Source: an uncultured Acidimicrobiales bacterium (GTDB taxonomy: Bacteria; Actinomycetota; Acidimicrobiia; Acidimicrobiales; SZUA-35). Taken from it: 64,000 nucleotides of DNA. Under the pieces are notes generated by a model. That model was not told the DNA's origin. It searched no databases and was given only the letters and a program-made list of their open reading frames with translations. Location: positions 1 through 64,000 of the forward strand of contig CALKZY010000003.1 in NCBI GenBank assembly GCA_938002965.1, in the 5' to 3' direction. The translations under genes and the position numbers were made by a program. How positions within the stretch are numbered: position 1 is the first letter of the stretch; the number at the start of each line of letters is the position of its first letter. This document shows positions 1,159 through 54,108 of the stretch, piece after piece.

Positions 1159-2181
1159 ATGTCCAACATGCGGTCGGTACTCCTGGCCTTTGACAAGTTC
1201 CGGGGTACAGCCGACAACGGTGAGTTGACGGCTGCCGCCGCCTCGGCTGCCGAGCGTCTGGGTTGGACAGCCAAGTCGGTCTCTTTGGCCGATGGCGGAG
1301 AAGGTTCGCTGAACGCGTTGGGTGGACCTAACCGGACCGCTGAGGTCACCGACCCTCTGGGTCGCAAGGTCGAAGCCGGTTGGCGGCTTGAGGGCAAGAA
1401 CGCGTTTATCGAGATGTCGGCCGCTTCTGGTCTGGCCCTTGTCGGCGGCGCTGAGCGCAATCAGCCCTTGGAAGCATCGACGGTCGGGACTGGCCAGCTC
1501 ATCGCCAACGCCATCGAGGTTGGTGCCCGTGACATCTACGTTTTTCTTGGGGGTTCGGCCACGACCGACGGAGGTCTGGGTGCGTTGCGGGCCATGCCGC
1601 CGCCGGCCCGCCTCAAAGAAGTGAACCTGGTAGTTGCCTGCGACGTTGAGACTCTCTTCGCTGATGCCGCCAGCGAATTTGGTCCACAAAAAGGCGCTTC
1701 GGCCGCTCAGGTCAAGATGCTGTCCCGACGGTTGGAACGACTACAGCAGATCTACTTCGATGACTACGGCGTCGATCTTCGGCAACGCCCCGGTGGCGGC
1801 GCCGCCGGTGGTTTGGCCGGCGGTCTGATGGCGGTTGGGGCGGAAACGGTGGCCGGGTTTGAGTTGCTGGCTGATCACGTTGGCTTGGACCAGCTCCTAC
1901 CCGACGTCGACTTCTGCATCACCGGCGAAGGGAAACTCGATCACACCTCGTTCCAAGGCAAGGTGGTCGGTGGCGTTCATCGTTGGGCCCGCGATCTTGG
2001 TGTGCCGACCGCCGCCATTGTCGGTGTCGTCGCTGATGATCTGGAACCACCGAGTGGACTTGTCGTTCGCTCGTTGACCGACGAGTACGGCCCCGAGGCC
2101 GCTGTTGGCGACACGCTTCGGCTGGTTGAGGAGTTAGCCGAGCTGGTTCTGTCGAAGGCCCAGACTGACGCAGGCGACTAG
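1159..2181 (+). CDS. Glycerate kinase (GlxK/GarK family)
   Basis: 340 aa. It opens with LLAFDKFRGT and then LADGGEGSLNAL, which correspond to the N-terminal signature of class II glycerate kinases (usually written DSFKGS...DGGEGT). The FLGGSATTDGGLGAL stretch and the late ITGEGKLD are also family signatures. The enzyme phosphorylates D-glycerate with ATP, usually to 2-phosphoglycerate, feeding glyoxylate or glycerate carbon into glycolysis. It is somewhat shorter than the ~375-380 aa of the enterobacterial enzymes, mainly in the middle. The ATG at 1159 is used; a second ATG nine bases on is possible. The preceding gene ends 71 nt upstream, so co-transcription is possible but not shown. Confidence 0.88.
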   Translation: MSNMRSVLLAFDKFRGTADNGELTAAAASAAERLGWTAKSVSLADGGEGSLNALGGPNRTAEVTDPLGRKVEAGWRLEGKNAFIEMSAASGLALVGGAERNQPLEASTVGTGQLIANAIEVGARDIYVFLGGSATTDGGLGALRAMPPPARLKEVNLVVACDVETLFADAASEFGPQKGASAAQVKMLSRRLERLQQIYFDDYGVDLRQRPGGGAAGGLAGGLMAVGAETVAGFELLADHVGLDQLLPDVDFCITGEGKLDHTSFQGKVVGGVHRWARDLGVPTAAIVGVVADDLEPPSGLVVRSLTDEYGPEAAVGDTLRLVEELAELVLSKAQTDAGD

Positions 2182-2206
2182 GCCCAGTTCGCTACGGCGC
2201 ATCGGG

Positions 2207-2422
2207 TCAGACTCGACCGCGACGAAGCAGGTATCGCCCGACCCAGGCCATTACCGCTAGGGCCAGAGCGAAGAAGACCAGCTGGATGACCAGCAGGGCG
2301 ACGCGGTTGATCAACCCGTCCAAGAAGTTGCCGGCCAGCAGGCCGATGATAATGAAGGCCACTCCCACCAGCGTCAAGCTGGGGGCGGGAACCCACCGGG
2401 GAACAAGCCGCCTGCTAGCCAT
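2207..2422 (-). CDS. Small two-helix membrane protein
   Basis: 71 aa. Two hydrophobic stretches are visible (about residues 15-30, LTLVGVAFIIIGLLAG, and 40-62, VALLVIQLVFFALALAVMA). A basic C-terminal tail (RYLLRRGRV) follows, so both ends probably face the cytoplasm. I do not recognise a family. It is convergent with the glycerate kinase gene, with 25 nt between the stops. The coding call rests on the coherent membrane topology and on the arrangement with the neighbour, so it is moderately secure. Confidence 0.55.
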   Translation of the reverse strand: MASRRLVPRWVPAPSLTLVGVAFIIIGLLAGNFLDGLINRVALLVIQLVFFALALAVMAWVGRYLLRRGRV

Positions 2423-2696
2423 GCCGTCAGCCTAGCCCAACGCTGGTCGAGGTCGCGGTGGGGCTGGCGACCCATCGTGAGATCGATGCGAGGGAATCGA
2501 AGGGCCCATCGGTGGCGAATCGGTCGGCTCATTGTGGCCGTCGAGGCTTGCCGCTCGTGGGGTTAACCCGATGGTTAGTTACTGGGCGGCGCAAATTCGC
2601 GGGAACCTGAGCGGTCGGCAATCGGAGTCACCTCCGAGTGCCGGCCGCTTGCCCCTTTTGGGTAGCGTCTCCGGTTTCGACGTTCGTCTGTGGCAA
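2423..2696. other. Intergenic region upstream of groEL
   Basis: About 270 bases with no convincing gene. Short frames here have no family resemblance. It lies between the divergent small membrane protein gene and groEL, so it should hold promoters for both. Apart from the CIRCE element just downstream, I see no strong repeat or hairpin. Confidence 0.5.
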
Positions 2697-2723
2697 CTAG
2701 CACTCTCATCGGTAGAGTGCTAA
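2697..2723. promoter_or_regulatory. CIRCE element (HrcA operator) of groEL
   Basis: CTAGCACTC, nine bases, then GAGTGCTAA. This matches the CIRCE consensus TTAGCACTC-N9-GAGTGCTAA at 17 of 18 arm positions. It lies 40 bases before the groEL start. By analogy with other bacteria, the HrcA repressor should bind here and release on heat or protein-folding stress. The hrcA gene itself is not in the window. Confidence 0.93.
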
Positions 2724-2732
2724 TTCGTCTAG

Positions 2733-4352
<1,620 letters not shown>

Positions 4353-5555
4353 TTACTGCAGCACTCGTACTTCTCGGGGCACGTCCATGAGGCACTCGGC
4401 TGGTCCTGATTCGGTTATCAGAATCGACTCGGTGATCTCCAGGCCCCAAGTTTCCATCCACAGGCCGGGCATGAAGTGAAACGTCATGCCCGGCCTGAGG
4501 ACTGTTTCGTCCTCGGGCCGGAAGCTAATGGTTCGCTCACCCCAGTCAGGGGGAAAGCTCAGCCCGATCGGGTAGCCGCAGCGGTCGCCGCCCCGGTCAA
4601 TCCCCCGAGCAGCCAGCGCATCCCGTAGGGCGACAGCCACGTCGCCGGCCCGGTTCCCGGCTTGTGCCGCCTCAATGCCAGCCTCGAGTCCACTGAGCAG
4701 CGCCGCTTCGGCATTGCGAATCTCCAATGGTGGGTCGCCGATGAACACCGACCGGCACAGCGGAGCGTGATAGCGCCGGTAACAACCGGCCAGTTCGAAG
4801 AACGTTGCCGCTCCACGATCCATGGGGGCATCGGTCCAGGTGAGGTGGCAGGCCGACGCGTCCTCACCGGTTGGTAGTAACGGCAAGATGGCCGGGTAGT
4901 CGCCGCCGTGCTCGGGTGTCCCCGTTATCGAGGCATGGAAGATTTCGGCCACCAGATCGTTCTTGCGCATGCCCGGCGTCAGGACCTGGTCGACGTGGCG
5001 GTAGGTGGTTTCCATGATTGACCCGGCGATTCGCATGTAGCCAATCTCGGAATCGGATTTCACCGCTCGCTGCCAGTTGACCAGCCCGGTGGCATCAATC
5101 AGTTCGACCTCGGAACGACCGACAGCGTCGGCCAAAGTCGACCGCAGTTCCTGGTCGGCCTTGGCCGAGTAGTAGTAGTTGTCCAGCTCGACCCCGATGC
5201 GTCGAGTCGCCCAACCTCGGTCTGCCAGCAGCGCCCCTAACGTTTGCATGGGGTGCCGTTGAGGCGTCTGCACGTAGGCGTCGGGGTAGGGCACGATGTC
5301 GTCTGGCGCTAGCCAGGTTGTTCGCAGCGCTGCCTTGGTGTCCATGGCCCGACCCCAGTAGAGGGGATCGGTGTCCAAGGTGACGATCACCCCCTGGAAG
5401 GTGTAGAACGACCAGGCGTTGAAGCCAGTGAGCCAGCACATGTTCGACGGATCGGATACGAACAGCACCTCGACCCCAGCCGCCTCCATGGCGGCCCGGG
5501 TCTTGGTGAGACGTTGCTGGTATTCGTCGACGGTGAAGTGAAGGTTCGGATTCAC
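4353..5555 (-). CDS. doeA: Probable ectoine hydrolase DoeA (M24 peptidase fold)
   Basis: 400 aa from a GTG at 5555; an in-frame GTG at 5600 would overlap the upstream gene. The creatinase-type N-terminal domain (SDPSNMCWLTGFNAWSFY) and the pita-bread domain with ATFFELAGCYRRYHAPL resemble DoeA/EutD, which opens the ectoine ring to give N-acetyl-diaminobutyrate. The metal ligands of true M24 aminopeptidases are absent: FELAG replaces the first Asp motif and GYPIGLSFPP replaces the His motif. This is as in DoeA and creatinase. The likely next enzyme, DoeB, is encoded two genes upstream on the same strand, which supports the call. Another amidohydrolase of the same fold (creatinase-like) remains possible. 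Confidence 0.78.
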   Translation of the reverse strand: MNPNLHFTVDEYQQRLTKTRAAMEAAGVEVLFVSDPSNMCWLTGFNAWSFYTFQGVIVTLDTDPLYWGRAMDTKAALRTTWLAPDDIVPYPDAYVQTPQRHPMQTLGALLADRGWATRRIGVELDNYYYSAKADQELRSTLADAVGRSEVELIDATGLVNWQRAVKSDSEIGYMRIAGSIMETTYRHVDQVLTPGMRKNDLVAEIFHASITGTPEHGGDYPAILPLLPTGEDASACHLTWTDAPMDRGAATFFELAGCYRRYHAPLCRSVFIGDPPLEIRNAEAALLSGLEAGIEAAQAGNRAGDVAVALRDALAARGIDRGGDRCGYPIGLSFPPDWGERTISFRPEDETVLRPGMTFHFMPGLWMETWGLEITESILITESGPAECLMDVPREVRVLQ

Positions 5556-5583
5556 CGTTTGATCTCTGTTGGCCTCAGTGGCC

Positions 5584-6117
5584 TTAGACCTGACGACCAC
5601 AGAATGAAAGCAGCTGGGTCTGCTCGTCGGCGTCGGCGGGGCAGTCGACCGCTGGACCGAACATGTTGGCGCCTCGCATGGCCTCTTCAGGGAATCGCTG
5701 CATGCCTCCCAGCGTGGCTGAAACCGCCTGGGTCGGAAGCTGTTCGTCTGCTCCGATGGCCCGAGCCAGATCCCAAGTGTGTATTAGCAGGTCGCCAGCG
5801 GAGACTCCGAACGGGACCATCTTGGGTACGGTTCCCATCGGTCCGAATTCGGTTGTTCCGTCGAGGGCTCCTTCGGCGGAGAGGGCGGCCTTGATGGCGT
5901 CGCGAGTTGTCGGCCAGTCGGCCCCTTCAGGGATCTCGGCGCCTACCATTCCGCCGGTGAACCCGACCTGCACGCCGACGGCGTGGTCTACCAGATCCTT
6001 GACCGTCCAGGCGTCGCATGGGGTGGATGCGGCCCACTGCTCCTCGGTCACGGCGTCGTACCGCTGGCTGAATGCATCGGCGGCGGCGTTCCAGATATCG
6101 ATGTGTTGTTGACTCAT
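5584..6117 (-). CDS. TIGR03086 family protein (mycothiol-dependent maleylpyruvate isomerase/DinB fold)
   Basis: 177 aa. The motifs STPCDAWTVKDLVDHAVG near the N-terminus and DLLIHTWDLARAIG near residue 110 are typical of actinobacterial TIGR03086 proteins. Those belong to the DinB/MDMPI four-helix fold and carry potential metal-binding histidines. The biochemical role of the family is mostly unknown; several relatives use mycothiol or bind a divalent metal. It lies between doeB (65 nt upstream) and doeA (28 nt downstream) on the same strand, so it may be co-transcribed with them. I see no direct reason to place it in ectoine breakdown. Confidence 0.8.
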   Translation of the reverse strand: MSQQHIDIWNAAADAFSQRYDAVTEEQWAASTPCDAWTVKDLVDHAVGVQVGFTGGMVGAEIPEGADWPTTRDAIKAALSAEGALDGTTEFGPMGTVPKMVPFGVSAGDLLIHTWDLARAIGADEQLPTQAVSATLGGMQRFPEEAMRGANMFGPAVDCPADADEQTQLLSFCGRQV

Positions 6118-6181
6118 ACCGAGGATGCTAGCCGAGGTGTGGGCTCAGATCAGGCGGTGGACCAGACTGGTGCCGTCGCTC

Positions 6182-7219
6182 TCAGTCCAAGGTTGCCTGC
6201 ATGGCGATGGCGTCGCCCATCTTGATCAGCCCGGGGTGGTGGCGCATCGCCAACACGCCGTCGACGGTGGCGTGATAGTCGACCGGGGCGACACCGAGCC
6301 GTCGAGACTCATGGACCCGGGCGATGGGCTGCCCGGCGCTGATAGCCCCGCCAAGCGGCACCAGCCACTCGATGAGGCCATCGGTGTTGCTTATGACGTA
6401 GCCGCCGACGTCGGGCACCGTAATGGGCTGTGACACCCGATCTGGGGTTGAGGCCTCCGCTGAGTCCGGGTCTAACACGCCCCAGTGGACGAGAAGGTTC
6501 CGGGCTCCGGCGTCAACAATGTTCACCAACTCTGGGCGGGTGGTACCGGTGCCACCGATCTCAGTGGTTACAAACGGGCGGCCCGAGCCGGCTACCAGCG
6601 TGTCCCACATGCCGAGTGAATCGAGTTCGACCAGCTTGGTCACGTACGGTGCAGCGAACGCTTTGGCTGCTGCTTGGGCGGCGGCGTCGACCTTGGGCTG
6701 GTCGGGCGTGGCCACTGACGACGCCATGGGGATGAACTCCAATGTTCGGCCACCGTCGTGAATGTCGACCACGGCGTCGGCCATAGGTAGGAGATAGCGG
6801 CTGAAGTAGTCGGCAATTCGTTCGGTGTGGGTGCCGTCGGGTTTGCCGGGGAAGCTTCGGTTCAGATTGCCTTTGTCGATGGGGGAGGTGCGAGTACCAG
6901 CTGCGAACGCCGGCTGGTTCATGCACGGAACGATGATGACTCGGCCCGAAATGTCAGCTGGGTCGAGAGTGTTGGCCAACTTGATGAGGGTCATCGGGCC
7001 CTGGTACTCGTCGCCATGATTGCCACCAGTCATCAACACGGTTGACCCGTCGCCGTTGCCGATCACGGCCAGTGGGATCATGACCGCGCCGTAGGCTGCG
7101 TCATCGCGGCTGTAGGGGAGCACGAGGTGGCCGTGGTGTCGACCATCGGAGTCAAAGTCAACGGTCGACGAAATAGGGCTGGCTGGCAGATCGTTGTTTG
7201 TTGCTGCAGCGCTGGTCAT
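6182..7219 (-). CDS. doeB: N-acetyl-L-2,4-diaminobutyrate deacetylase DoeB
   Basis: 345 aa, the usual length. It is a zinc carboxypeptidase-like deacylase of the AstE/AspA family. The zinc motif HGDE sits in GGNHGDEYQGP, with the third ligand likely in VVDIHDGG. The start (FDSDGRHHGHLVLPYS) and SPIDKGNLNRSFPGKPDGT closely follow DoeB, as I recall that family. It removes the acetyl group from N-acetyl-diaminobutyrate made by DoeA, giving 2,4-diaminobutyrate, which is then converted to aspartate. The later steps (aminotransferase, dehydrogenase) are not in the window. ATG at 7219; the nitrobindin gene diverges to the right. Confidence 0.87.
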   Translation of the reverse strand: MTSAAATNNDLPASPISSTVDFDSDGRHHGHLVLPYSRDDAAYGAVMIPLAVIGNGDGSTVLMTGGNHGDEYQGPMTLIKLANTLDPADISGRVIIVPCMNQPAFAAGTRTSPIDKGNLNRSFPGKPDGTHTERIADYFSRYLLPMADAVVDIHDGGRTLEFIPMASSVATPDQPKVDAAAQAAAKAFAAPYVTKLVELDSLGMWDTLVAGSGRPFVTTEIGGTGTTRPELVNIVDAGARNLLVHWGVLDPDSAEASTPDRVSQPITVPDVGGYVISNTDGLIEWLVPLGGAISAGQPIARVHESRRLGVAPVDYHATVDGVLAMRHHPGLIKMGDAIAMQATLD

Positions 7220-7282
7220 TTCAACACGTTAACTGATAGCGGAGAAAGTGCGCTGGGCCGCAAATGGAGGAATACTGGACGG

Positions 7283-7801
7283 GTGAGCAGCAATCCGACG
7301 CCCGATCGGGCACTGCATCCCGCCGCCGAACCGTTCGCATTCATGCTCGGTACCTGGGCGGGTTCGGGGGAGGGTTCGTATCCCACAATCGACGGATTCT
7401 CCTACCTTGAAGAGGTCACCTTCGGCCATGTCGGCAAGCCATTCTTTGCATACACCCAAAAGACCCGTCACGCGGAAACCGGAGCACCGTTGCACGCAGA
7501 GAGTGGCTATTGGCGATTCCTCACTGGTGACGGGGTGACCGGTTCCGGTATCGAGTTGGTGATGGTCCACCCCACCGGTGTGGCTGAGCTGCTTTCCGGG
7601 GCGTTCATAGCTGAACACGGTGGCGGCACATTCGAGTTGAGTTGCCCCAACGTGGCGACAACCGCATCGGCCGTTCTGGTGGAGAGGACAACCCGGCAGT
7701 TCCACTTCGACGGCGACACGCTGAGTTACGACGTAGCCATGGCCGCAGTAGGTCAACCGTTGACTCATCATCTGTCGGCCACGCTCTCTCGTCGCGGTTA
7801 G
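7283..7801 (+). CDS. Nitrobindin-like heme-binding beta-barrel protein (FABP-like, DUF1794)
   Basis: 172 aa from the GTG at 7283; GGAGG lies at 7266-7270. The reading frame is open further upstream but would overlap doeB. The signature GTWAGSGEGSYPTI near residue 22, GKPFFAYTQKT, and a C-terminal LTHHLSATLSR are those of nitrobindins. In that family the C-terminal histidine binds ferric heme in a 10-stranded barrel, and the proteins isomerise peroxynitrite and react with nitric oxide. It is encoded near hemQ, which fits a heme-linked function but does not prove it. Confidence 0.83.
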   Translation: MSSNPTPDRALHPAAEPFAFMLGTWAGSGEGSYPTIDGFSYLEEVTFGHVGKPFFAYTQKTRHAETGAPLHAESGYWRFLTGDGVTGSGIELVMVHPTGVAELLSGAFIAEHGGGTFELSCPNVATTASAVLVERTTRQFHFDGDTLSYDVAMAAVGQPLTHHLSATLSRRG

Positions 7802-7831
7802 CCTCCGGCGGGTGGGTTGGAGAGAGTCCTA

Positions 7832-8656
7832 ATGGTGCGTTCACGGTCACAACAGCTTTTCGTTCGCAACCTTGGTGGTGGCCGTCAACCGGACGATCTG
7901 GTGGTGGAGGAACCGATGACCATCCAACTCGATGGTCACGACGTGAGCTCCACCATGCGAACCCCCGGTCACGACTTTGAATTGGCTGTTGGCTTCCTCC
8001 TAGCCGAGGGTTTGATCTCTGGGGGCGAGGTGGCCGGCATTCGCTACTGCGGCACCGGCTCGCCGGTCGACAGCGAGTTCAACGTGGTCACTGTTGAAAC
8101 CGGTGGCCAGGTTGACGCCCCCACTGCCCGCATGGGGACGATCTCGTCGTCGTGTGGTATCTGCGGTATCGATGCCATTGAAACGCTAACTGAACGGCTG
8201 CGAGTGCTGCCGCGCTACGAGCCGTGGGATCTCGATCTGCTCATCGCCGGACCCGATCTCATGCGAAAGGCCCAACCGCTGTTCGACGCCACCGGAGCAG
8301 TCCACGCCGCCGCCGCCATGAACCGAGCCGGTGACATCCTTGTGGTGCGTGAAGACATCGGACGGCACAACGCTGTCGACAAGGTGGTGGGGCGAATGGT
8401 CATGGACGACCTGATCCCAACTGGTTCCGATGGCGGCGACTCCGACTATGCCTTGATGGTCAGTGGTCGGGCGTCGTTTGAGATGGTCCAAAAAGCCTGG
8501 GCGGCTGGATTCACTGCGTTGGTGGCGGTGTCTGGGCCATCGTCGTTGGCGGTATCAACTGCTCGCCGGGCCGGCCTCACCGTCTTGGGCTTCGCCCGCG
8601 ATGGGCAGGCTAAGATCTACAGCCCGCTGGAAATTGTGGACGGACCGACTCGGTAG
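7832..8656 (+). CDS. fdhD: Formate dehydrogenase accessory sulfurtransferase FdhD
   Basis: 274 aa from the ATG at 7832, which follows GAGAGAG; a TTG 15 bases earlier is the alternative. Family landmarks are MRTPGHDFELAVGFL, the SSCGICG motif with Cys108 and Cys111, REDIGRHNAVDKVVG near residue 170, and a late SGRASFEMVQKA. FdhD takes sulfur from a cysteine desulfurase and inserts it into the bis-MGD molybdenum cofactor of formate dehydrogenases. No formate dehydrogenase gene is in the window. The gene sits 10 nt ahead of hemQ and could share its transcript. Confidence 0.95.
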   Translation: MVRSRSQQLFVRNLGGGRQPDDLVVEEPMTIQLDGHDVSSTMRTPGHDFELAVGFLLAEGLISGGEVAGIRYCGTGSPVDSEFNVVTVETGGQVDAPTARMGTISSSCGICGIDAIETLTERLRVLPRYEPWDLDLLIAGPDLMRKAQPLFDATGAVHAAAAMNRAGDILVVREDIGRHNAVDKVVGRMVMDDLIPTGSDGGDSDYALMVSGRASFEMVQKAWAAGFTALVAVSGPSSLAVSTARRAGLTVLGFARDGQAKIYSPLEIVDGPTR

Positions 8657-8666
8657 GCTTGGTCGG

Positions 8667-9422
8667 GTGACCGAGCATCCCGCCCCCGCCCACGACCAAC
8701 CCGAAACGACCTCGGAGTTGGCTCCTGAGCGAAACGAGAACGGCTCCACCGAGATGTCGGTCGGCATCGGCGTCGTCCACCTCTTCTTCCGCTTGTCGCT
8801 GGGAAGCGAACGAGCCGCCGCCCTCGACGCGCTGGCCAAGGCCGAGAAGAATGACGTCCAAATCGTCACCGCTGCGGTGTTGGGGCATAAAGCCGACCTG
8901 GCTGTCATGGGTCTGCATCGGGACCTGAAAGAACTCCGCCGACTACAAACCGATTTGGTGGCGGCCGGCCTGGAGCTGGTCGACAGCTACGTCTCGCTAA
9001 CCGAGATCAGCGAATATGCCGCCGGTGTACCCGATCGCATGAAGCAGGATCGCCTGTATCCGGTGCTGCCGCCGGAGGGTAAGCCGGCGTGGTGTTTCTA
9101 CCCCATGAGCAAGAAACGTGAGCCGGGCCAGAACTGGTTCACCACCGAGTTCGATCGTCGCAAGGAGCTCATGTACGAACATGGCGCCAGCGGACGTAAG
9201 TTCGCCGGTCGTCTGGTTCAACTGATCACCGGATCCACCGGTGTCGACGACTACGAGTGGGGAGTTACTCTGTTCGCCCAGCACCCCGATGACCTCAAAG
9301 ACGTGGTGTACACCATGCGCTTCGATGAGGCTTCGGCCGTTTACGCCGAGTTCGGGCCGTTCTACACCGGTCTGGTGGACGAGCCTGCCACAGTAATGTC
9401 CGAGATCGGCCTATCCGACTAA
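8667..9422 (+). CDS. hemQ: Coproheme decarboxylase HemQ (chlorite dismutase family)
   Basis: 251 aa from a GTG at 8667; an ATG at 8754 (MSVGIGVVHLFF) is a possible shorter start. The motif WCFYPMSKKR contains Tyr145, the tyrosine that forms the radical in coproheme decarboxylation in this family. No arginine of the chlorite-dismutase type is evident. HemQ converts coproheme III to heme b at the end of the coproporphyrin pathway used by actinobacteria. Other heme genes in the window (hemE and hemY at 34-37 kb) lie in a separate operon. The stop of fdhD is only 10 nt upstream. Confidence 0.92.
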   Translation: MTEHPAPAHDQPETTSELAPERNENGSTEMSVGIGVVHLFFRLSLGSERAAALDALAKAEKNDVQIVTAAVLGHKADLAVMGLHRDLKELRRLQTDLVAAGLELVDSYVSLTEISEYAAGVPDRMKQDRLYPVLPPEGKPAWCFYPMSKKREPGQNWFTTEFDRRKELMYEHGASGRKFAGRLVQLITGSTGVDDYEWGVTLFAQHPDDLKDVVYTMRFDEASAVYAEFGPFYTGLVDEPATVMSEIGLSD

Positions 9423-9616
9423 CAGAACGGCCGTCGAAGATGCTGGAGGCGGCCGAGTGGACTGGTGACTAGGTGTTCACCCGGGCACTCTCGTTACACA
9501 TTCGGTAGTACGGCCGACAGGGGGCGATGCCCCCAATCGATGATCTTGAGCTACATTCAGTTCGGCTTGCCGGGCCCTTCGACGCACCGGTGGCTGAGAC
9601 CAAGGTGGTGCTAGGT

Positions 9617-10909
9617 ATGAAGTGGAATCCTCTTTGTCGCATTCGACGCGCCTACGGAACTTCGGTGCTGATTGTTCTGGCTGCTGCGGCTGCTGTTGCC
9701 GCCGGGTGCGGAACGACGGTGTCAGGTGAGTCCGAGCAGGCGGTACTCGAATCATCTGAAGTTGTTGAGCCGGCAACGGACTCCGCGGACGGCAACGGCG
9801 CGTCTGACTCTGATGACCAGAGCCTGGTCGTTGATGCGGCCGAGCCTATCGATGATTCGGGTGGCGACGCCGACGCTGGCAAAACCGGAGCGGAGACATC
9901 AACCGGATCCCAATTCGTTGCCGTGTTTGGCGCGGGCACAGAAGATGAGCTGTCGGCATCGGTCACCGTGCCCGACGGCTGGTCCTCCGACCGTTCGTCC
10001 AACACTCTTACCGACGGTCAATCGACTATTTCGTTGAGAAGCGGATGCGCCGACTGCGACAGCCCCGAGGGGTACGACAACTTCTTCAACGAGATCGATC
10101 TGGATGACGAGAACCTCGGTTTCGGTTTTGGTTTCGGCCAGGACGGTACAACACATGAGTCGGTCAACGGACTTCAAAGCGACGGCAGTTGGTCGGGCCA
10201 AGTTGCGTTGTCACTTGAAGGTGCCACACAGTTCATTGCCTGCACGGTGGAGACAGTCGATGAGGCCAGCCTGGATGTCCTTACCGAAGTATGCGAATCG
10301 ATGTCGATCGGGTGGCCTGCCGAGCTGATCGAAGCAGCCATGGAGGACTTCGAGATAACCGTCACTGATGATGGCTCCGATGAGTCCGGCGGCGAGGCTG
10401 CTGAGATCGTGGAGAAGCTCTCCGATACCGCCGCTGCGGTCGTGGCCAATCCGGCACCGGAGCTGCCGAGGCGAGACGTTGCACTCGAACTAGGCGACGA
10501 CTCCAAAGTCGTGAACGTCGCACTGCCCGCCGATGCAACGGTTGGGGAGAGCTTCTTTGGTGTCGAGGTTTCCCTTGGTGCAGCCCCGATCTTTACCGAT
10601 ATTGAGCTGGCCGCCACCTGCGATGGTGCGTGCGTGCCGAAAGACTGGCAGGCGGCATTGAACTCGGCCGATGGCTATCTCACAAACCAGCGTTCGTCGA
10701 TGGAGATCATTGAAAATGACTCTCCGATCGAGTCCGGTTGGCTGCTCAGCGGTAGTGGATCATTTGATGCCTACACGATCGTTGTCGCTCGCTGGAACGA
10801 CTCAGCCGACCAGTTCATGATGTGTGAAGTATCGGTCGACGAAGACGACTTGGGCCTGGTCGATGAGCTCCTCGGTATCTGCTTGTCGGCTAAGCCGTCC
10901 TGGTTTTAG
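9617..10909 (+). CDS. Putative acidic lipoprotein
   Basis: 430 aa from the ATG at 9617. A basic start (MKWNPLCRIRRAYG) is followed by a hydrophobic run and a lipobox ending AAGC, so it should be a membrane-anchored lipoprotein. About 80 acidic, Ser/Asp-rich residues follow. Two regions then look like repeats of one module: each has a GxxxxFxA segment and a Cys pair (IACTVETVDEAS...TEVCESM and MMCEVSVDEDD...LGICLS). No known family is recognised. The frame is open to 9527, but that extension would destroy the signal peptide. Confidence 0.72.
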   Translation: MKWNPLCRIRRAYGTSVLIVLAAAAAVAAGCGTTVSGESEQAVLESSEVVEPATDSADGNGASDSDDQSLVVDAAEPIDDSGGDADAGKTGAETSTGSQFVAVFGAGTEDELSASVTVPDGWSSDRSSNTLTDGQSTISLRSGCADCDSPEGYDNFFNEIDLDDENLGFGFGFGQDGTTHESVNGLQSDGSWSGQVALSLEGATQFIACTVETVDEASLDVLTEVCESMSIGWPAELIEAAMEDFEITVTDDGSDESGGEAAEIVEKLSDTAAAVVANPAPELPRRDVALELGDDSKVVNVALPADATVGESFFGVEVSLGAAPIFTDIELAATCDGACVPKDWQAALNSADGYLTNQRSSMEIIENDSPIESGWLLSGSGSFDAYTIVVARWNDSADQFMMCEVSVDEDDLGLVDELLGICLSAKPSWF

Positions 10910-48619: not shown

Positions 48620-50241
48620 TGCAACAACACGGTGCCCAGCGCACCGACGTCGCCCGCCTGGAGGACTACATCCGAGCAGTTCAGCTGCGCAAATGGTTGG
48701 TTCTGGCCGCAACTCTTGCCGGGTTGATCCTTGGGTACCTGTACGCAACGAGTCGGGATTCGAACTACACGGCAACCGCTTCGGTCCTGGTGCGTGCGTC
48801 CCCGGTAGGGGCCAGAGTGCAAGGCCAATACGAGCTGGCAAACCTGGAACGCGAGCGCGAAGTACTGCAAGGGAACCGGGTGGCTGAAGCCGCAGCGCTC
48901 ACTCTCGGAAACGGCAGAACCGCTCAGGACCTGCAGCGAAACCTGAGTGTTGACTTTCGGCCCGAATCCGATGTTCTTCTCGTTCGCTACACCTCCGAGG
49001 ATGCCGAGGAGGCAGCGCAAGTGGCTAACGCGTTCGCCGCCGAGTACGCCGCTCTACGTGAAGGCGAGGCGGCCGGATTCTTCTCGTCGCTGCTGGGCTC
49101 CACCAACGACGACGTCACATCGACCCGGGCCGCCCTCCAAGCGGCCTACGCCGAGAAAGAAGCGCTCGAAGTGGAGCGTTCGGTGGTCGACGACGCTGGA
49201 GGCGATGTGTCTTCCATCGATGCCGCCATCGCTGTGGCCAACTCGAATGCCTCAAGCATGTCGCGGCAAATGCAAGATGCCGAAGAGGAACTGAATGACC
49301 TGCAAAAGCAGAACGACGCCCGCTTTCCGGCCGCTGAGCTCCTCAAAGGGGCACTGACCCCGGGTTCACCCAACGGGTTTGGAGCCGGACTGTTGACTCT
49401 GGCCGGCCTGTTACTCGGAGCGCTACTCGGTGTGGTTGGCGCCTTCTTGTTGCAGCGACTCGATACCACGGCCCGCGACGACGAAGACGTAGCCTTGGCG
49501 CTTGGATCCGCCGTGCTCGGATCGGTACCAACACTTGGTGTCGGTGTGCGAGGCGGAACGGGTGGGCTGGTCATGCTGTCGAGCGGGGGGTCGGCTCGAT
49601 TCCACGCAGCCCGCGAAGCCTTCCGTCGGCTCCGCAGCTCCGTGCAGTTTCTGAACACGTCGAGCGGCGTGAGTTCGATTCTGGTCACCAGCTCGACCCC
49701 AGGGGAAGGTAAGAGTCTCACATCGGCCAACCTGTCTGTGGCGCTGGCGCAAAACGGGTCTCGGGTGGTGTTGGTCAACGCCGACATGCGCCGCCCAACG
49801 CTCGAAAAAATGTTCGGTATGGAGGCCAACCGGCCGGGCCTGGCCGACTATCTCAACTTCACCGCCGACATTAACGTCGAACGCACCCCCAATATTGAGA
49901 ACTTGTGGTTCATCCGGGCCGGCACACAGCCGACAAACCCTGGCGAACTGCTAAATTCCGATCGTTTCGAGCAGCTGATGAAAGAGCTCGATCGAGAAGG
50001 GGTTGATTTTGTTGTGGTCGATACTCCGCCGGTGCTTAGCACTGCTGATGCGGTGTCCGCCGCCCGCTTTGTTGACGGCGTTCTGGTGGTCGTTGACACC
50101 GAGCGGACCGACACCTCCGACCTGCTCCGAGTCCGAGCCGATCTGCAACGCAGTGGCTCAACCATCTTGGGCTCGGTCATGAACCGGCAGAAGTTCAAAC
50201 GCCGAGGGTTCTTCAAACGCCGTGACCACTACTCCTATTGA
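48616..50241 (+). CDS. Chain-length determinant/bacterial tyrosine kinase (Wzz-BY-kinase fusion)
   Basis: 541 aa. The Wzz domain has helices near residues 27-45 (WLVLAATLAGLILGYLYATS) and 260-283 (GAGLLTLAGLLLGALLGVVG), with a periplasmic coiled-coil between. The cytoplasmic kinase has Walker A VTSSTPGEGKSLTSANLSVA, Walker A' VVLVNADMRRPTLEKMFG and Walker B VDFVVVDTPPVLSTADAV. The C-terminus ends RRDHYSY, a minimal Tyr cluster for autophosphorylation. It controls polymer length and export with the Wzy polymerase. Overlaps the next gene by 20 nt. Confidence 0.92.
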   Translation: MMQQHGAQRTDVARLEDYIRAVQLRKWLVLAATLAGLILGYLYATSRDSNYTATASVLVRASPVGARVQGQYELANLEREREVLQGNRVAEAAALTLGNGRTAQDLQRNLSVDFRPESDVLLVRYTSEDAEEAAQVANAFAAEYAALREGEAAGFFSSLLGSTNDDVTSTRAALQAAYAEKEALEVERSVVDDAGGDVSSIDAAIAVANSNASSMSRQMQDAEEELNDLQKQNDARFPAAELLKGALTPGSPNGFGAGLLTLAGLLLGALLGVVGAFLLQRLDTTARDDEDVALALGSAVLGSVPTLGVGVRGGTGGLVMLSSGGSARFHAAREAFRRLRSSVQFLNTSSGVSSILVTSSTPGEGKSLTSANLSVALAQNGSRVVLVNADMRRPTLEKMFGMEANRPGLADYLNFTADINVERTPNIENLWFIRAGTQPTNPGELLNSDRFEQLMKELDREGVDFVVVDTPPVLSTADAVSAARFVDGVLVVVDTERTDTSDLLRVRADLQRSGSTILGSVMNRQKFKRRGFFKRRDHYSY

Positions 50242-51502
50242 GGTCGCACAGGTAGCGCAGGTCCAGGCCGAGCCCACACAATCGGAGAGCCTTGTTGGTT
50301 TGCCGGGAATCTTGGAGAGCCTGGTGGTTTGGGCCGCTTGCTTTTCTCTGTTTCACGGGCTGCCAATGGACTGGTTTCAAACCCGACAGGAGGCCCTGGC
50401 GGTCGAAGGAAACCTACGCATGGTGATCGTTCAGATGGCGCTCATGGGTGTGGGGATCGCCCGGGTTGCCGGCAGTTTCGATTGGCTGCTTCGAGCGATC
50501 CGGCTTGACGCCGCCATGTTCGGTTTCGTGGGGATGACCTTGGCCTCGACGTTCTGGTCGACCGATCCCGGCGAGACTATGCGGCAGTCAATCATCTTCA
50601 TTACCGTCACCCTCTTCGCTGTGTACCTGGTTCTCAGGTTTTCGCTGCCTGAGATTCTTCAAATCTGGGCGTTGGTGTTCACCGCATCGGCTGTCGCCAA
50701 TCTGTATTTCATCTTTCGCCTTCCGGTCTATGGGCAGTCGGTGGCCGGACAGTGGGATGGGGTTTACACCCAGAAGAACGCCTTGGGCTGGATGGCGCTG
50801 GTCGGCATTCCGGTGTTGTTGTCGGCCGGTCGGGCCACGCCGCGGTTTCGGGTGCTTTACTACCCGGCTGCCGCAGCCTTTGTAGTGCTTCTAATCGGCT
50901 CTGAGTCCAAGACGATGCTCTGTCGACCAGCGGGTCGGTCGGGCTGATGATGATCTATCTGCTGTTTCGTGGCCGCAAGACAATGCGCGGCGTCGCCTAC
51001 CTCGGTCTGGTCACCGCTGTGGGAGTGACTGTCACCTTGACCTTCACGAACATCGAAGCGCTAACCGAACTGCTGGACAAAGACGTCAGCTTCACCGGGC
51101 GCATTCCGTTGTGGCAGTTGCTGTGGCCGATCGCCCTCGCCGAACCGCTGCTCGGGTACGGCTACAAGGCGGTCTTTCACCGGCTACTTCGGGCCGGTCC
51201 ACGAGGTGTGGGTCATGGAGAATTGGAATCCGTCACATGCCCACAACGAACTGCTGAACCTATGGCTACAAGTTGGTCTCGTTGGGCTCGGGCTGTATCT
51301 CGCATCGCTTGGACGGGCTCTGCCGCGATCAGTTCGCACGGTTGCCGCGCTGCCGGGAGCGGCAGGACTGTGGCCGCTGGTATTCATTTCCTCGGCCATC
51401 TTGGTGTCCATCACCGAGTCTGGAATGAGCAACGGCATCGCTGGGTGGATGATGTTCGTGGTCGCCGTGCTCTCAGCCGCCCATCACGGCGCAAAGGCCT
51501 AG
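50222..51502 (+). pseudogene. O-antigen ligase/polymerase (Wzy/RfaL family), broken by two frameshifts
   Basis: The gene starts at a GTG inside the kinase gene. Part 1 (50222 to about 50915) ends LIGSESKTM. The sequence continues in a second frame as ALSTSGSVGLMMIYLLFRGR up to LLGYGYKAVFH. It then continues in a third frame as GYFGPVHEVWVMENWNPSHA and HNELLNLWLQVGLVGLGLYL to TAG at 51500-51502. Together they form one ~12-helix membrane protein with the O-antigen-ligase HNxxL motif. Repair needs about one base deleted or two inserted near 50915-50920 and one base removed near 51178. It may be a real pseudogene or sequencing error. Confidence 0.8.
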
Positions 51503-52050
51503 GTGGCCAGCAGATCCTCGATGCGTTCGGCCAGTTCTTCGGGGCTGATGGCGCCCTGACGGATGTCGATGGTGCCGTCATCGTTGATGAACGCCACTGC
51601 CGGCTGACTGCCGACTCCGAAGGCCGCCCACAGTGAACCGTCTGCGTCCAGGGTGTGCGTGAAGCGATTGACGCCGTTGCCGCCAAGGAAGCCTTTGACC
51701 GCCGACAGGTCGTCCTTGCCGGCCATGCCGACGAAGGTCACCTGGTCTCCGTATTCATCGTGCGCCGCTGCGACCGCAGGGGCTTCTCGGATACAGGTGG
51801 GTCACCACGGAGCCCAGAACCACAGCACTGCGTCCTGGCCTTCCAGCGAGCCGAACTCGAACTGCCCACCATCGGTGGTCTCAGCTGTCAACGCCAGGGG
51901 CTGAATCTCACTGCTATCAGAGCCGCCAGAGTTGCTACCAGAGCCGGTGGTCGTGGACGCATCGTCGCCGGCGCAGGCGGCCAGTCCGAGCGATAGGGCC
52001 ATGACCACAGCGGCGGCCAGGCGGGATGGCGTAAAGCGCGAACCTCGCAT
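51499..52050 (-). CDS. Candidate selenoprotein: TlpA/thioredoxin-like lipoprotein with UPTC motif
   Basis: 183 aa if TGA is read as selenocysteine (Sec83, codon at 51802-51804). From the ATG at 52050 there is a lipoprotein signal (MRGSRFTPSRLAAAVVMALS, then LAAC) and a Ser/Gly/Thr linker. A Redoxin/TlpA domain follows, starting LTAETTDGGQFEFGSLEGQD. The catalytic site reads LWFWAPW-TGA-PTCIREAP, where the family has WCxxC. The frame continues uninterrupted through DEYGDQVTFVGMAGKDD and SQPAVAFINDDG, including a cis-Pro, to TAG. Only the first Cys codon is replaced. A SECIS-like hairpin follows. The protein would be a thiol-disulfide oxidoreductase outside the membrane. If TGA is a stop, the gene is broken. 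Confidence 0.72.
51764..51804 (-). promoter_or_regulatory. Candidate bacterial SECIS element after the UGA codon
   Basis: On the mRNA, UGA (51804-51802) is followed by 18 bases and then GCCCCUGC (51783-51776), loop GGUC (51775-51772) and GCAGCGGC (51771-51764). The stem is 3 bp (GCC/GGC), one C-C mismatch, then 4 bp (CUGC/GCAG). The loop starts 26 bases after UGA and has G at its first position. This fits the published general pattern for bacterial SECIS (loop 16-37 nt from UGA, G among the first two loop bases). It is in coding sequence, as expected. Confidence 0.55.
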
Positions 52051-52318: not shown

Positions 52319-52957
52319 CTACGACGGCTTGTAGTCTGGATTGTCCCAGACGATGAGAACGGCGTAGCTGTCGACCGTTTCATCCCGCATGTAGTTCGGG
52401 ATGGCTTGGACCGCCCGGAAACCCTCGGAGATTTGGAATGACAATGTCGGGTCGTACAGCTCCCCAGCTTTGACTTTTTCGATGTACTCGTCAGCCGTCA
52501 TCGTTTTGATGTGGTCTCTGTAGCCGGGCAACACACCGCCAGCCACAATTCCAGCCTTGTTGTGTTTCGTGACGCAGCCTTTACGCAGGGCGTAAAGCTG
52601 GCGTCCGACACCTTGGCCGCGGTAGGCCGGGTCAACGGCGATGGTCGTGCCGTAGTACCACGGGTTGTCCATCGAGTGGTTGCCGACGCCGCCCTCACCG
52701 TGGACCTCGGTCAGTCCGTGGTCCGAGTGATCGAAGTCGAAGTCGATCAAGATGCCCATGCCCAGCCCTATGAGCTTGTCATCATCGTCACGGTCCAAGA
52801 CCATGAAGTTTCCGTCGGGGAACGCTCGGGCCACGTTCACCATTTCGTCCACGGCGTAGAGATCTTCGGTAGCGACGGTGTCGAACGTGTTGTGTTCAAG
52901 ACGGTGGGCGTCCTCGATGCGCTCCACAGTCAGATTGGTGTATACCAGGTTGGTCAT
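52319..52957 (-). CDS. GNAT family N-acetyltransferase
   Basis: 212 aa from an ATG at 52957. YYGTTIAVDPAYRGQGVGRQ is the acetyl-CoA pyrophosphate-binding motif; the enzyme has a longer C-terminal half (MTADEYIEKVKAGELYDPTL, GFRAVQAIPNYMRDETVDSY, VLIVWDNPDY) seen in a subfamily of larger GNATs. Substrate unknown. The frame upstream to 53062 overlaps the C45 gene and is not likely used. The 268 bases between this stop and the selenoprotein gene hold nothing I can identify. Confidence 0.82.
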   Translation of the reverse strand: MTNLVYTNLTVERIEDAHRLEHNTFDTVATEDLYAVDEMVNVARAFPDGNFMVLDRDDDDKLIGLGMGILIDFDFDHSDHGLTEVHGEGGVGNHSMDNPWYYGTTIAVDPAYRGQGVGRQLYALRKGCVTKHNKAGIVAGGVLPGYRDHIKTMTADEYIEKVKAGELYDPTLSFQISEGFRAVQAIPNYMRDETVDSYAVLIVWDNPDYKPS

Positions 52958-53001
52958 GATCTCGTTTGCTTGCTGTTCGCTTGCTGGTTCACTGACTCTC
53001 T

Positions 53002-54108
53002 TTAGTTGCTCGGCGGTATCGCCACCGAGGTGAACTCGTTGTGCGACGGCAGGCCCCAACACGCCCAGAAGTCCAGCGTTCGCGGTCGCATTATGGCGGC
53101 CCCACTGGACTCGACATGATACGGCTCAACCGCCACCTGGCAGACAGCGGTGGGCTCACGGGTCAGTTCCATCATGTCGTCGGCAGTCAGGTTGCCATCA
53201 CTGTCACCGAGGATCTTGGTGGCGATATCCAGCCGGCGCATCGACGAATCCATGAGCATGGGTGAACGGTCACCCTGTACAGCTTGAGCCTCCGGGTGAA
53301 CAGTGTGATTGGTGTGGACCAGAGCCTGGCCATTGAGCTGATCAAACGGGCGGGCCGATGGCATAGCCTCAATGCTGAAGCCCTCCCCGTTGGCGTCTAA
53401 CACCAAGAAACTGTGCCCGCCAGCCAAGTCAGCGTCCATAATCACGTCCTTGGCTTCGGCTGCCGATTCGGTGGTCAACGCATGGCGGACAACCTGAGGC
53501 CACGTCACACCCGGCTTGCCGTCGGTGGCGGTCAAGTTGTTGATGCCAACGCATACGCCCAACTCGTTCATGCCGATCTGGCCCAGCGCCCCGGTGGTGG
53601 TGAATACGACGGCGTTAGGCGCATCGTCAGGGGCCAAGCGCAACAAGACCACATACTCGGTTGCGGTGTCGTGCATGTCCCACGTCTGGCCGTAGAAGCC
53701 GGTGCCATCAGCGGCCATGTCGTCGGGAACGATGAAGGCGGTGCAATCATCTTCCATAACCTCATCGGGATGCGGGCCACCCTTGTGGGCCCGGACGGTG
53801 TCGACGAAATCGGTGAAGCCACCAACGATCACCGCCTCGGCCGGAGTGATCCCGGCTGCGTCCGCCATGGCCAGCATTTCGGTGGCCAAAGCAGGCGAGT
53901 GAGCTTGATGAGCGGCCACCATGGAATCAGCCAAGGCCAGCACGCCGTCGCGACCGATCGCCTGGCCGGTCCACAAGTCGGAGGCGGCGAGGGCCACCCG
54001 CTCGTCGGTGTAAGCCCGAATCTCGTCACGGTAGGTCGCTCCGTGGGTGAACCCCATCTGCTCGGGACTGCCGCTGAGATCGAGGATGCGAATCGGAGGA
54101 CGTTTCAT
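53002..54108 (-). CDS. C45 family autoproteolytic acyltransferase/hydrolase (Ntn fold)
   Basis: 368 aa. The N-terminal GSPEQMGFTHGATYRDEI and the self-cleavage site MEDDCTAFIVPDD, with Cys122 as the new N-terminal nucleophile, are typical of the C45 family (acyl-CoA:6-aminopenicillanate acyltransferase relatives). Further family stretches are FYGQTWDMHDTATEYVVLLR and LGVCVGINNLTATDG. These enzymes cleave or exchange amide-linked acyl groups; the substrate here is unknown. About 45 nt separate its stop from the start of the downstream GNAT gene, suggesting an operon. Confidence 0.85.
   Translation of the reverse strand: MKRPPIRILDLSGSPEQMGFTHGATYRDEIRAYTDERVALAASDLWTGQAIGRDGVLALADSMVAAHQAHSPALATEMLAMADAAGITPAEAVIVGGFTDFVDTVRAHKGGPHPDEVMEDDCTAFIVPDDMAADGTGFYGQTWDMHDTATEYVVLLRLAPDDAPNAVVFTTTGALGQIGMNELGVCVGINNLTATDGKPGVTWPQVVRHALTTESAAEAKDVIMDADLAGGHSFLVLDANGEGFSIEAMPSARPFDQLNGQALVHTNHTVHPEAQAVQGDRSPMLMDSSMRRLDIATKILGDSDGNLTADDMMELTREPTAVCQVAVEPYHVESSGAAIMRPRTLDFWACWGLPSHNEFTSVAIPPSN

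Follow-up and report, generated by a model that had tools for sequence, protein, structure and literature searches.

A thioredoxin-like gene of an uncultured Acidimicrobiales bacterium with an in-frame UGA very probably read as selenocysteine, and a sister group with UGA at both redox positions

How is a reading frame to be interpreted that continues through a UGA codon placed just where a thioredoxin-like active site needs its first cysteine? The question is posed by a gene on the minus strand (the original prediction had given no strand) of the window analysed here, a stretch of 64,000 nucleotides from contig C3 of an uncultured Acidimicrobiales bacterium, whose genome (G000) is a draft bin of 57 contigs and 4.69 Mb, 91.46% complete and with 6.12% contamination. 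The gene (51499..52050) runs from an ATG at 52050 to a TAG at 51501-51499 and, with UGA taken as selenocysteine (Sec), would encode 183 amino acids, the frame being open on both sides of a single TGA, as first noticed; without recoding it terminates at 51802, giving a truncated product of 82 residues. The UGA (51802..51804, minus strand) does lie at the first redox position of the CxxC motif, and would specify Sec83 in WAPW-U-PTC; Cys86, the resolving residue of the UxxC motif (51793..51795, minus), falls in a column that does not vary across an alignment of 85 homologs, with Sec written as Cys. The protein comprises, in order, a signal peptide with a lipobox, L23-A-A-C26, as predicted lipid anchor site (51973..51984, minus; LAAC is taken as a lipobox by the usual motif rule), a linker rich in Ser and Gly, and a thioredoxin domain containing WFWAPW-U-PTC and SQPA. 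Pro150 in the latter motif (51601..51603, minus), which precedes strand 151-155 of a structural model and aligns with QPA of the solved structure 3ios, occupies the cis-Pro position of the thioredoxin fold, in agreement with the expectation that this feature was kept downstream.

The neighbouring gene at 52319..53062 (minus) presumably, to judge from its sequence, encodes a GNAT-like acetyltransferase, and comparison by eye found a similar GNAT-like gene directly upstream of the UGA-containing ortholog in genome G009. No redox-partner gene was seen, again by eye, in the neighbourhoods of the window gene and its G009 ortholog. On the plus strand, at 50222-51502, there is what we take to be an O-antigen-ligase-like gene, split into open reading frames at 50222-50947, 50947-51636 and 51206-51502; its copy on G009:C325 is an intact frame of 449 amino acids, and the split may reflect either two assembly indels or a decayed gene.

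The genome appears equipped to decode UGA as Sec, all four of the genes for which a search had originally been proposed being found: a tRNA-Sec (over cut-off at 66.3 bits, and given the anticodon tca by ARAGORN), selA (392.9 bits), selB (adjoining selA on contig C7; 253.7 bits across the whole frame, over cut-off) and selD (364.9 bits; G000:C17:47905-48840, L018). These selenium genes sit on contigs other than that of the window, in a bin with the level of contamination given above. The selD gene is itself a selenoprotein gene, with its own UGA in HGAG-U-ACK.

Homologs of the window protein (P0001) occur in all 12 genomes of the genus (E <= 1e-8), and the closest, on G009:C325, is 85% identical and has the same UGA. 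When 154 homologs were read around the motif (duplicates removed), 57 proved to be UxxC, 13 UxxU and 84 CxxC, so that relatives aligned at this codon, a comparison suggested at the outset, have UGA in 70 cases (window gene counted) and Cys in 84. Sixty-three of the UGA rows come from the window's taxonomic family and seven from elsewhere in the class; the Cys rows are made up of 79 from named records, nearly all of other actinobacteria, and only five from genomes of the class, and because of this, distance is in part bound up with Sec/Cys state there. The protein alignment took in 66 of the 70 UGA rows and 19 of the 84 Cys rows. Two loci that fell outside the motif pattern, and so are uncounted, were later read as UxxC (L183) and as UxxU with the hairpin described below (L155); also uncounted are G019:C281, several weak places with one TGA, and L033, which is cut by a contig end, and NFFASW-type Cys paralogs stand outside the 84. 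A loose lipobox-like pattern is present upstream in 58/70 UGA genes and 77/84 Cys homologs. The genome contains four more UGA paralogs among the genes read, at C6:32000 (UPTC), C5:13631 (UPFU), C6:187592 (WFFAPH-U-PAC) and C30:12830 (WFFSPH-U-PTC). Elsewhere, UGA thioredoxin genes with WFYAPT-U-TTC and WFWAPW-U-PTC lie in tandem on G025:C11 (L143, L168) and G026:C78 (L142, L167), and it is possible, judging from this arrangement, that their products interact as selenoproteins.

UGA forms and selA tend to occur together. Of the 39 genomes in the family, 31 have a P0001 match at E <= 1e-15 (30 with a UGA form by hand count, and G027 with a Cys form only); selA is found in 35 of the 39 (34 over cut-off), including all 30 with a UGA form, although in one of these (G005) the match is below cut-off. 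The four family genomes that lack selA (G028-G031) have no P0001 match at E <= 1e-15. Four others (G002, G012, G032, G034) have selA but no P0001 match at that threshold, G002 having a WAPH-U-PAC form at a weaker score. Elsewhere in the class, 12 genomes match (E <= 1e-25): eight have a UGA form, seven of these with selA, and four have a Cys form, two of them with selA. The eighth UGA genome (G226, 79% complete) has a UGA form but no selA was found in it. The two genomes with selA and the protein in its Cys form (G121, G223) point to possible Sec-Cys exchanges within the class.

A SECIS-like hairpin after the UGA was part of the original prediction. The hairpin (51764..51783, minus) does have a GGUC apical loop (51775-51772) 26 nt after the UGA, a folding energy of -11.1 kcal/mol, and agreement with generic bacterial SECIS rules (a G in the first two places of the loop and a spacing of 16-37 nt, as set out in PMC13188914), but the rules are not specific and the lone fold is not significant: 62/70 UGA genes pass the rules and so do 48/84 Cys homologs, and the RNA fold is unremarkable at three window lengths (z = -0.38, 0.02 and -0.95). 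Taken alone, the hairpin is weak evidence, and it is convincing only by comparison. Its exact form, defined as GGUC 26 nt past the codon closed by at least four contiguous pairs, is present in 49/70 UGA genes (36/57 UxxC and 13/13 UxxU) as against 0/84 Cys genes, even though GGUC by itself stands at the same place in 17/84 CxxC genes. It is also found in 0/12 Cys paralogs of the window's family, 11 of which are more distant and NFFASW-like and one of which (L154) is among the 84. Around the hairpin, an unbroken run of 24 bases is the same in the window gene and its G009 ortholog. The WAPH-type paralogs have a different hairpin, with a GUU or AGUUC loop at 34-35 nt.

Pairing in the stem was counted over 60 of the 70 UGA rows, those with GGUC in register (nine WAPH-type paralogs and L189, with other hairpins, were left out). 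Paired cells made up 82.5% of 480 compared with 71.4% in shuffles, cells changed on both sides numbered 48 against 12.9 in shuffled and at most 21 in slid alignments, and the covariation score was 0.304 against 0.127 (shuffled) and 0.051-0.097 (slid), these cells being sequences rather than evolutionary events. Two of the five measures were no higher than in shuffles: pairs with a double change (five, a value reached in 193/500 shuffles) and further pair types (13, reached in 51/500). As the rows were chosen by their GGUC, the invariance of the loop is a matter of that choice, which leaves the stem covariation unaffected.

A covariance model of UGA plus hairpin (54 positions) was run against the 12 genus genomes, with the best 150 of about 1800-10600 candidates per genome scored. 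In the window's own genome it gave six matches at E <= 0.01 among those 150: three training rows, the paralogs on C30 and at C6:187787, and C6:27410, which is inside no sensible gene. Five weak matches in other genomes were inspected: L205, L211 and L222 look like chance, L212 adds another paralog with WFYAPH-U-PTC, and L216 is at a contig edge. No new kind of selenoprotein thus came to light among the matches inspected.

That the half of the gene beyond the UGA looks selected is borne out by comparison with the G009 ortholog: over the 100 codons after the UGA, dN is 0.060 and dS 0.577 (dN/dS 0.104). In 11/11 pairs the downstream dN/dS is below 0.4, although several pairs have an unreliable dS above 1 and two extend over just 22 codons. 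Purifying selection has acted on the downstream half. Together with the sel genes and the UGA and Cys relatives, this supports the selenoprotein reading, and we regard it as very nearly certain, on these sequence comparisons, that the window gene is a working selenoprotein gene in which the UGA at 51804-51802 is read as Sec.

Among other readings, the one that survives best is that the UGA works chiefly as a stop with a regulatory role, so that a short lipopeptide is the usual product and the full protein is made only under ample selenium. Bacteria in general decode the UGA of their selenoproteins inefficiently, which would favour such an arrangement, but the truncated form would be without the redox motif, and constraint is as strong after the UGA as before it (upstream dN/dS 0.115 in the same comparison), so we consider this unlikely as the main role of the codon; as an added layer, it is compatible with the Sec reading. 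Much less probable still is a pseudogene or sequencing error in which a TGC or TGT Cys codon has become TGA. The sequence belongs to a draft bin, and the split O-antigen-ligase-like gene, intact in G009, means that indel errors or decay do exist nearby; against this, 69 further genes from many genomes have the same UGA (the closest of them being 85% identical), and its presence in so many separate assemblies rules out a base error as its cause, while the constraint downstream, the covarying hairpin and the sel genes also argue against decay. An altered code or a suppressor tRNA by which UGA is read as Trp or Cys would equally leave the frame open, but is scarcely credible, since UGA terminates 33 of the 69 UGA genes with a visible end (and therefore is not simply reassigned), the internal UGAs among the genes read are at redox positions, tRNA-Sec, selA and selB are present, and the hairpin is tied to UGA forms.

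If the UGA is read as Sec, to what kind of protein does it contribute? P0001 is clearly above cut-off for the Pfam families Redoxin (57.1 bits), AhpC-TSA and Thioredoxin and marginally so for Thioredoxin_2 and TraF, and matches PF00578, with PF08534 scoring better. It is below every NCBIfam cut-off (ResA 50.1 against 170, DsbE 37.3 against 123.15, TlpA 25 against 230), and by these curated models is not ResA, DsbE or TlpA, although it does combine a thioredoxin fold with UxxC and the cis-Pro, as expected of TlpA/ResA/DsbE-like proteins of the cd02966 type (TlpA-like). In an AlphaFold model, block pLDDT is 96-99 from residue 51 on, across the domain. A structure search with this model placed DsbF (3ios) at the top (47% identity at rmsd 0.8 A; TM by target 0.94), followed by MPT53 (1lu4), and a sequence search of solved structures agreed (3ios first with 124 bits, then 1lu4); among solved structures, the window protein is thus nearest to the actinobacterial DsbF/DsbE(MPT53) group. 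With Mycobacterium tuberculosis DsbF (Rv1677) and DsbE/MPT53 (Rv2878c) it shares the thioredoxin domain and a WFWAPW/WFWTPW active site, but Sec replaces the first active-site Cys; the comparison covered the domain and active site, and the window protein has a predicted lipobox in addition. For the two mycobacterial proteins, PMC3853704 reports oxidative folding of hirudin and suggests DsbD or Rv2877c as the partner. From these fold matches and that activity we infer that the window protein is an exported disulfide oxidoreductase, which might work in either direction.

In the scheme that we favour, in which Sec insertion, lipidation, redox direction, partner and substrates are all inferred, the GGUC hairpin, 26 nt on from the UGA, would bring in SelB and tRNA-Sec, and the ribosome would insert Sec at that codon. 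The product, a DsbF/DsbE-like thioredoxin, would be exported and held outside the membrane by a lipid anchor. There, the Sec83 selenolate would attack substrate disulfides or, when oxidised, would take electrons from substrate thiols, the mixed selenosulfide being resolved by Cys86; a CcdA/DsbD-like or VKOR-like membrane protein may be the partner.

A group of particular interest consists of the paralogs in which each of the two redox positions has a UGA (WAPW-U-P[FHV]-U). Thirteen were read from 12 genomes of the window's family, including its own (G000:C5:13631-14137, L044); the others are L029, L034, L043, L144, L145, L151, L157 and L159-L163, with L155 as a fourteenth. Their two UGAs are nine bases apart, and the GGUC hairpin lies 26 and 17 nt from the respective codons. 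Across the loop, Thr and Val replace Ala and Ala in 10/60 rows, with the base pair kept, and all ten are among the 13 UxxU genes; as these genes are related, the exchange perhaps reflects few events. Since the Ala-to-Thr and Ala-to-Val changes come together and leave one pair of the hairpin intact, the protein sequence seems to be guided by the RNA element. It seems rather more probable than otherwise, judging from these genes, that the group consists of exported diselenide thioredoxins whose two UGAs are decoded via one shared GGUC hairpin. In a search of 296 genomes of the class (E <= 1e-25, best 11 candidates at most per listed genome), G000 and G025, which belong to the window's family, were the only genomes with two-UGA forms among the candidates scored.

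A tree of 137 columns, with the active-site letters masked and 31/84 Cys and 56/57 UxxC rows included, placed the 13 UxxU rows on one side of a branch with weak support (53), inside a strongly supported set with six UxxC rows. It implies five changes between Sec and Cys forms and, with its many open forks, neither dates nor orients these switches. Across the phylum, a UxxU paralog was used as query against 396 genomes drawn evenly from a larger group (best nine candidates at most per listed genome); among the candidates scored, 53 genomes matched at E <= 1e-15, and 31 of the 52 other than the window's own had a one-UGA place (hand count). Nineteen of these phylum loci were read: 11 have UGA, always at the first redox position, and eight have Cys. 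The four-pair GGUC hairpin was found in 0/11 of the UGA loci read, and no place with two UGAs outside the window's own genome was among the phylum matches listed. Ten UGA forms from other families of the phylum are without that hairpin (L228, L229, L231, L232, L233, L236, L237, L241, L242, L243), and five of them (L229, L232, L233, L236, L237) have in common, near the UGA, AGGCUCCCG, which is perhaps part of a different SECIS.

How much of this has been described before? Sec at the UxxC position of thioredoxin-like selenoproteins is indeed known, as had been stated from the start: a 2026 catalogue (PMC13188914) lists a UxxC thiol-disulfide isomerase-like protein (cd02966), a UGC TlpA-like protein, a UxxC Redoxin, and Prx-like proteins with UxxC or UxxU, and the same selenoprotein classes are named in PMC9312934 and PMC1088965. 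UxxU has also been noted in a Prx-like 2 family (PMC2398784), a 'ULPU-containing selenoprotein', known here by its description alone, appears in PMC5029168, and 12 selenoprotein families have been given for Actinobacteria (PMC1794560). The thiol-disulfide isomerase-like protein from the Sargasso Sea (2005; PMC13188914, PMC1088965) shares domain class and UxxC with the window protein, a comparison made by description only, in which no link of lineage, lipoprotein or hairpin was seen; the Prx-like thiol:disulfide oxidoreductase with UxxC/UxxU (PF00578; PMC13188914), likewise compared by description, has PF00578 in common with P0001, which is better placed in PF08534. The NCBIfam model NF041054 (ResA-like, WAxxUGC) also represents a ResA-like selenoprotein, but its motif is UGC where the window has UPTC, and P0001 reaches only 34.1 bits against a cut-off of 300. 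UxxC TlpA-type selenoproteins being catalogued in PMC13188914, the kind to which the window gene belongs is already known. As to the suggestion that the version in this lineage may be undescribed, the main text of PMC13188914 contains no 'Actinobacteri', 'Actinomycet' or 'lipoprotein', and a literature search from which subscription papers were mostly out of reach found no report of this protein from Acidimicrobiia or Actinomycetota. Of all that is described here, the UxxU group has the best chance of being undescribed, though it may overlap with the listed UxxU entries.

A COX1-type terminal oxidase (PF00115) is encoded in 11/12 genus genomes at E <= 1e-20, the window's own included, which suggests an aerobic life for the genus; aerobic bacteria rarely keep selenoproteins, according to PMC13188914. 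A gene caller that terminates at UGA would annotate the window gene as a shortened lipoprotein and overlook the enzyme, as it would several paralogs in the same genome and the UGA forms met with in the phylum's other families. For this reason, the use of selenium in the exported disulfide chemistry of Actinomycetota has probably been under-counted. If our reading of it is true, the UxxU group would be a natural case of a diselenide thioredoxin, with two Sec codons served by one hairpin.
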